A DNA stretch of 64,000 nucleotides, from contig NZ_CP081183.1 in assembly GCF_019693215.1 (NCBI RefSeq), positions 1,553,226 to 1,617,225 of the forward strand, read 5' to 3'. A program made the translations under genes and the position numbers. The DNA comes from Salinarchaeum sp. IM2453. Lineage in GTDB: Archaea; Halobacteriota; Halobacteria; Halobacteriales; Salinarchaeaceae. Below, in pieces: positions 6,197 to 21,660 of this stretch. The notes beneath the pieces were generated by a model. The model was given only the letters and a program-made list of their open reading frames with translations. It was not told the origin of the DNA and searched no databases. Numbering within the stretch: the stretch's first letter is position 1; each line of letters starts with the position of its first letter.

Positions 6197-6254
6197 ACCT
6201 CTATTTATCTCCCGCAGTTCCTAATTGGTTGGATTGCAGAATGACTCTCTTATT

Positions 6255-6304
6255 ACAGCGGTAGCGAGGCGAAAGCCCACCCCTTCAGGGGTGTGGATGA
6301 AGCC
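6255..6304 (-). repeat. IS200/IS605-type end hairpin, copy 2
   Basis: A perfect 6-bp stem CACCCC (6278-6283) / GGGGTG (6288-6293) with a TTCA loop, next to GGCGAAAGCC at 6268-6277. Read on the minus strand it matches the copies at 18.5 kb and 21.6 kb, including the flanking GCTACC and CTGTAA. It marks the left border of the GC-rich hairpin region that runs to 6755. Confidence 0.65.
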
Positions 6305-6374
6305 GACATGATATGTCACAAACAACGTGACATAGACCGGTTGTAATCCCAACGTTTATTCTATGCGAAATATT

Positions 6375-6712
6375 ATGAGTTGGTAGGCATGCGACATGCT
6401 GCTGCGGGGAACGTGCTCACGCTCAAGCTGGCCACGAGTGCGTCTCAACTCTTACATTCACACACCTTCGCAGCCCAACCAGCAGCGGTTGGCATGTCAC
6501 CCAAGCGCTCCCCACGTGTGGCTGTAACGGGGAGTGGGGCCGATGGCCCGGCCCGCTGCTCACGGTGCTGGACGCCCGTGAGTGTCACTCCCTTCTTGGG
6601 AGGGCAACACCGAGTGGATACCCAACACGCCACACCCCCGTTTGGGGGCCAAAGGTGCATCAGCGAACCCGCACGTTCACAGCCGGGGTAATCAATCTGG
6701 GTGGATTACCCA
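6375..6712. ncRNA. GC-rich row of perfect hairpins; candidate structured RNA
   Basis: This gene-free stretch is much richer in G and C than its surroundings and holds consecutive perfect inverted repeats: CCAACC/GGTTGG (6475-6492), CTCCCC/GGGGAG (6508-6534), GGGCC/GGCCC (6537-6549), CTCACGG/CCGTGAG (6559-6582), CTCCC/GGGAG (6588-6602), CCCCC/GGGGG (6635-6648) and GGGTAATC/GATTACCC (6686-6711). A long run of stems in DNA with no convincing protein suggests a structured RNA or the folded end of a transposable element. The strand is not decidable by eye. Reading frames through it give Cys/Pro-rich proteins with no family resemblance. Confidence 0.5.
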
Positions 6713-6714
6713 CG

Positions 6715-6755
6715 GAGGAATCCCACGACTTCAGTCGTGGGAGGAGGTCAAACTG
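6715..6755 (-). repeat. IS200/IS605-type end hairpin, copy 3
   Basis: A perfect 9-bp hairpin, TCCCACGAC (6721-6729) / GTCGTGGGA (6734-6742) with TTCA loop, followed by GGAGGTCAA. The GAGGTCA tail is the usual mark of haloarchaeal TnpB-type element ends and is shared with the copies at 21.6 kb and 18.5 kb. It forms the right border of the hairpin-rich stretch and lies in the same orientation as copy 2. Confidence 0.7.
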
Positions 6756-6839
6756 TCCTATGTTGCTAATGAATGCCGGTATTGAGCGACGAACATCATT
6801 ATTCCTCTTGAATCCAAATCTCTCGGAGGTGTGTAACTG

Positions 6840-21604: not shown

Positions 21605-21660
<56 letters not shown>

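Follow-up and report, generated by a model that had tools for sequence, protein, structure and literature searches.

Palindrome-associated transposable elements (PATEs) were described in 2011 in Haloquadratum walsbyi as multi-copy elements that target a short oligonucleotide (PMC3119063). They lack terminal inverted repeats, carry near-terminal palindromes like those of IS605-type elements, cause no target duplication and are too short for a transposase. Transposition of IS200/IS605 elements proceeds through single-stranded DNA with hairpins at its ends, and, in the TnpB model derived from ISDra2, the 3′ end of the reRNA reaches into the flanking DNA and guides TnpB (PMC8612924). HgcC, a family of archaeal RNAs, is transcribed in Thermococcus kodakarensis, three members from transposase genes and two from loci not associated with them (PMC4247193). 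Our search of the open-access literature found no paper that links HgcC to TnpB or PATEs to TnpB guide RNA. Reportedly, studies of bacterial IS605 elements have brought up PATEs alongside TnpB.

Here, we describe a 495-bp element in a 64-kb stretch of the Salinarchaeum sp. IM2453 genome (the window). An initial annotation of the locus had noted a row of perfect hairpins bordered by IS200/IS605-type hairpins and had proposed a mobile, structured non-coding element or an RNA comparable to that made from TnpB element ends. The features of the element given below lie on the plus strand.

A Mobile Element with Defined Borders

The element occupies positions 6257–6751 and follows the target tetranucleotide TTAC (6253–6256), which lies at its left boundary. 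TTAC also precedes the left end in those copies in which this end is intact, both in this genome and in others, and the TnpB elements T31 and T32 likewise begin at it. The ends of the element, AGCGGTAGC and GGAGGTCAA, form no terminal inverted repeats; the palindromes are near-terminal, and the right border reads GGTCAA. The left end (~100 bp, 6257–6360) is common to the TnpB-coding elements of the genome, with 78–91% identity by blastn, and inspection of the window revealed a subterminal hairpin within it (CACCCCT/AGGGGTG, 6278–6293). The right-end hairpin, TCCCACGACT/AGTCGTGGGA (6721–6742, helix 18), has changed on both sides in five of its six pairs among the related copies. Both hairpins of the initial annotation are present, but a single element accounts for them, as its left and right ends, rather than two flanking IS copies, and the limits that had been given for the stretch give way to the true borders at 6257 and 6751.

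The genome (2.66 Mb, one contig) holds about 16 copies of the element. Three further copies are 99–100% identical, about ten more are 73–95% identical, and there are fragments in addition; similarly, the model of the 5′ domain (R1, see below) identified 16 places. At 495 bp and with no Pfam domain, the element is too short for a transposase; it is present at these ~16 places with defined borders. The four copies that are at least 99% identical, the window copy included, have different flanks and equal borders, which indicates that the element moved recently. Furthermore, a related copy in genome G071 lies within a gene that the sister genomes G274 (94% identical) and G166 carry intact. Since its flanks, once joined, give a single open frame and the gene is uninterrupted in the sisters, this insertion occurred without target duplication, a result that comes from this one related copy and its empty site in G274. 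Directly upstream of a copy of the element in G071, on the other strand, lies a TnpB-like gene (L162, 587–1384). Judged by its sequence and that of its copies, the 495-bp element is mobile, transposase-free and of the IS200/IS605 type.

No match to phage was found, nor did viral contigs match two conserved patterns of the element or the neighbouring NUDIX protein. No tRNA is located near the element.

A Conserved RNA Core

Between 6375 and 6712, a script (stems of 5–8 bp, loops of 3–15) counted eight non-overlapping perfect hairpins, compared with a mean of 4.0 in 500 dinucleotide-preserving shuffles, of which six reached eight. The total stem length was 48 bp compared with 22 bp in the shuffles, and 48 bp was reached by one of the 500. 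These counts bear out the row of hairpins noted initially, and the change in composition was seen as well (GC from ~0.42 to 0.59–0.70). The fold energy, which is a weak test, was only modestly below that of shuffled sequences (z of −1.98 for the plus strand and −2.96 for the minus strand).

Covariation was decisive. The conserved core (367 nt, 6385–6751) was present in full or nearly full length in eight further sampled haloarchaeal genomes and also on plasmids of Salinibaculum and Natribaculum, and most of it carries no annotated gene in these relatives. In an alignment of 20 cores, the consensus structure comprised 97 pairs, with 96.8% of the cells paired. Of the 97 pairs, 35 had changed on both sides, compared with 17.5 in shuffles and 2–12 in slid structures, and while taking the consensus from the same alignment favours it over its slid versions, the gap is larger than that. 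One of the helices concerned is the linker hairpin CTCCCC/GGGGAG (6506–6536, helix 7), in which five of seven pairs changed on both sides. The plus strand is favoured because G-U cells in the core pairs (169) far exceed A-C cells (29). These results show that the RNA structure of the core is under selection.

No conserved protein was found to run through the stretch, in agreement with the earlier view that it holds no believable one. The two longest frames had no Pfam match, and the frame with a conserved ATG was not kept among the copies, being missing, truncated or frame-shifted in many of them. At gathering thresholds, Rfam gave no match anywhere in the 64-kb window. The mobile, structured non-coding element proposed at the outset is thus recovered as a multi-copy, transposase-free, IS200/IS605-type element with a covarying RNA core.

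The Two RNA Domains

The 5′ domain (114 nt, 6385–6498) is the most conserved part of the core. Its local closing helix is 98% paired, with one pair switching from A-U to G-C. Model R1 found the domain in 9 of the 394 genomes of the class, spread over seven genera. When 84,980 species were searched for an exact pattern, it occurred only in records titled haloarchaea or uncultured archaeon A07HR60. The domain has no Rfam counterpart, and no tnpB lies inside any element that carries it. Because it occurs in no TnpB element examined, the locus is better viewed as an RNA element in its own right, present alongside TnpB genes elsewhere in the genome, than as a freshly decayed TnpB copy. The initial comparison with an RNA of TnpB element ends near a lost TnpB holds for the 3′ half, which shares the TnpB right-end scaffold, but the detail of the lost TnpB needs refining. 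In a Natribaculum breve copy (L166), an insert of ~1.1 kb at ~1600–2780 separates the two RNA domains; it has a long ORF of its own that resembles an IS transposase and does not match the TnpB query.

The 3′ domain (~215 nt, 6538–6751) is omega/reRNA-like. From 6538 onward, its sequence can be aligned to that of four TnpB elements from this genome at their 3′ ends, where the corresponding stretch additionally encodes the end of the protein. Over 18 elements and four TnpB 3′ ends, 96.0% of the pair cells in the scaffold helices were paired, and one scaffold helix was swapped on both sides with pairing kept (CTCACG/CGTGAG versus CCCTGT/GCAGGG). The arm at 6584–6657 differs between the element and the TnpB 3′ ends and does not align. 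A pseudoknot between a hairpin loop and a downstream motif was 95.5% paired with little variation and is conserved rather than covarying. The last 95 bp of the element, together with its left end, are 78–95% identical to TnpB elements. At every place examined, the 3′ domain was found with the 5′ domain, at the right end, and the core terminates at the transposon border GGTCAA, which corresponds, in position only, to that of an omega/reRNA. The shared helices indicate that the 3′ domain is kin to the guide-RNA scaffold of TnpB right ends. If the layout of TnpB reRNA applies (PMC8612924), the predicted guide segment would be the flanking DNA at 6752–6771, which is different at every insertion.

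A Promoter-like Box and Candidate TnpB Partners

A TATA-like box (TTTATT, 6355–6360) starts 30 bases before the conserved core. Among 17 representatives, 10 have a TATA-like hexamer whose first base falls between −38 and −28 relative to the core (at −30 in nine and at −31 in one), compared with 0.86 expected, and none of 2000 shuffles reached 10; the representatives are not all independent, as several copies come from one genome, but at least four different upstream sequences carry the box. It is also present in members with unrelated upstream sequence. A distance of ~30 bases is the usual one for an archaeal promoter if transcription begins at the first conserved base.

The genome has 51 places with a TnpB domain, many of them intact, including intact genes for a TnpB of 466 aa whose ends match those of the element, and one intact Y1 TnpA. 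Close relatives of this TnpB were found in five of nine element-bearing genomes (six with one just under the threshold) compared with 24 of 385 others (Fisher p = 1.6e-4), a count that takes in the query's own genome and a statistic that ignores phylogeny. Three carriers, G369, G384 and G134, have no close cognate TnpB; the last of these genomes is 99% complete, and its nearest TnpB shows only 45% identity.

Discussion

Could an element without a protein gene make the guide RNA for a TnpB encoded elsewhere? We lean towards this reading, in which the locus is a non-autonomous IS200/IS605 element (a PATE) and the source of a guide RNA that serves TnpB in trans; the flank would be the guide and TTAC the motif that the cognate TnpB needs (its TAM). 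The element may, in this way, borrow a TnpB encoded elsewhere in the genome to keep its place. The left-end promoter would start the RNA at ~6385, so that the payload would be one structured RNA, and we infer that this RNA is transcribed and processed. It would run into the flank, with the first 16–20 nt past GGTCAA as the guide. TnpA, acting in trans, would move the element via the end hairpins. TnpB from full-length elements would bind the RNA and cut element-free chromosome copies, in which TTAC is followed by the flank, and because repair would be templated by an occupied copy, the element would be restored. Haloarchaea are polyploid, which would supply the occupied copies. The transcription of HgcC RNAs in T. 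kodakarensis lends this reading support from another organism, since the HgcC model matches TnpB right ends in the present genome and, below its cut-off, the 3′ domain. The 5′ domain might stabilise the RNA where the tnpB message is absent, which is a guess on our part. We are evenly divided on the wider proposition that PATEs like this one are RNA genes, selfish units of transposon ends and a self-transcribed guide RNA that hijack a TnpB made elsewhere for copying back into vacated sites, with the 5′ domain as a new accessory domain of guide RNA.

Several points speak against the guide-RNA reading: three carriers have no close cognate TnpB, the pseudoknot is conserved rather than covarying, and the 5′ domain, to which nothing in known guide RNAs corresponds, could point to another function of the RNA. 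One could think of a structured RNA unrelated to TnpB, for example a ribozyme, an RNA controlling TnpA or one with some other regulatory role, that is framed by IS605 ends and merely adopted the right-end scaffold, as the most conserved domain is the one without an Rfam match and three carrier genomes have no close TnpB. We nevertheless consider this unlikely, given that, at every place examined, the 5′ domain comes together with the 3′ domain at the right end, that the TnpB scaffold helices are kept and that the carriers are enriched for TnpB of the matching clade.

The element could also be an ordinary degenerate PATE, passive and moved by TnpA, in which the RNA-like 3′ sequence is an unused leftover of the parent TnpB element. 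PATEs are described as arising in part from IS605-type elements by core deletion (PMC3119063), and the 78–95% identity of the left end and last 95 bp to TnpB elements would agree with such a descent. A leftover, however, would not keep its pairing through 35 both-side changes, and a conserved 5′ domain that none of the examined TnpB elements has, together with the constant spacing of the TATA-like box, makes this account quite improbable. Hardly credible is the view that the structure serves the folding of single-stranded DNA during peel-and-paste transposition by TnpA rather than an RNA, which would draw on the single-stranded movement of these elements with their end hairpins and on a G-U bias that also fits the folding of one DNA strand, but TnpA requires only the element ends, the 5′ domain is missing from the TnpB-coding elements of this genome, and the box at ~−30 is left unexplained.

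If the trans-acting guide RNA is real, it would explain how transposase-free PATEs spread and persist in haloarchaea, and it would mean that TnpB guide RNAs can come in trans from elements that have no protein gene. It would also provide a natural guide RNA that is compact and yet has an extra domain.

Comparison with Known Systems

Among the alternatives considered, an IStron was rejected, as no Rfam group I intron matched up to E = 10. Like canonical MITEs, the element is short, transposase-free and presumably mobilised in trans, but it differs from them in having neither terminal inverted repeats nor target duplication.

The best Rfam match to the 3′ domain was HgcC (RF00062), with E = 0.004 and 22.8 bits against a gathering score of 50, and is thus sub-threshold; the HgcC model has nothing equivalent to the 5′ domain. 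In the element's own genome, the RF00062 model gave 38 matches, 11 of them right behind TnpB genes and 6 inside the 495-bp element family, and the remaining ones seem to be further PATEs. As the model matches TnpB right ends, the HgcC family may consist of RNAs from the right ends of TnpB elements, which offers a reading for its function.

The omega/reRNAs of TnpB, known from ISDra2 (PMC8612924) and from the Halobacterium sotRNAs (RF02656/RF02657, PMC12558985), differ from the element, which has no tnpB in cis and has its own promoter-like site and an extra 5′ domain of 114 nt. The sotRNA models, sot0042 (RF02656) among them, had no match on the element; the TnpB element L034 itself scored 17.6 bits with RF02656, for which the gathering threshold is 88.

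The closest system is the PATE. By the published definition (PMC3119063), the element is one: it is without terminal inverted repeats, has near-terminal palindromes, makes no target duplication (as seen for a related copy), is too short for a transposase, is multi-copy and targets a short oligonucleotide. Its kind is therefore already known, as PATEs were described in Haloquadratum in 2011. At 21607–21659 of the window, a 53-bp "terminal-only" element (TTAC...GAGGTCAA) with fused left and right ends resembles the 52-bp core-deleted PATEs reported in that paper. A 438-bp transposase-free element elsewhere (L226, G000:C1:1835750-1836450) has a similar left end and a different core, which suggests that other PATE families carry the right-end RNAs of other TnpB clades. 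PMC3119063 treats PATEs as non-coding or degenerate, whereas the present element has a covarying RNA and a TnpB right-end scaffold and occurs in several haloarchaeal genera. What is new, then, is the evidence that one PATE family, present in several genera, has at its centre an RNA that is under selection and bears the guide-RNA scaffold of TnpB.
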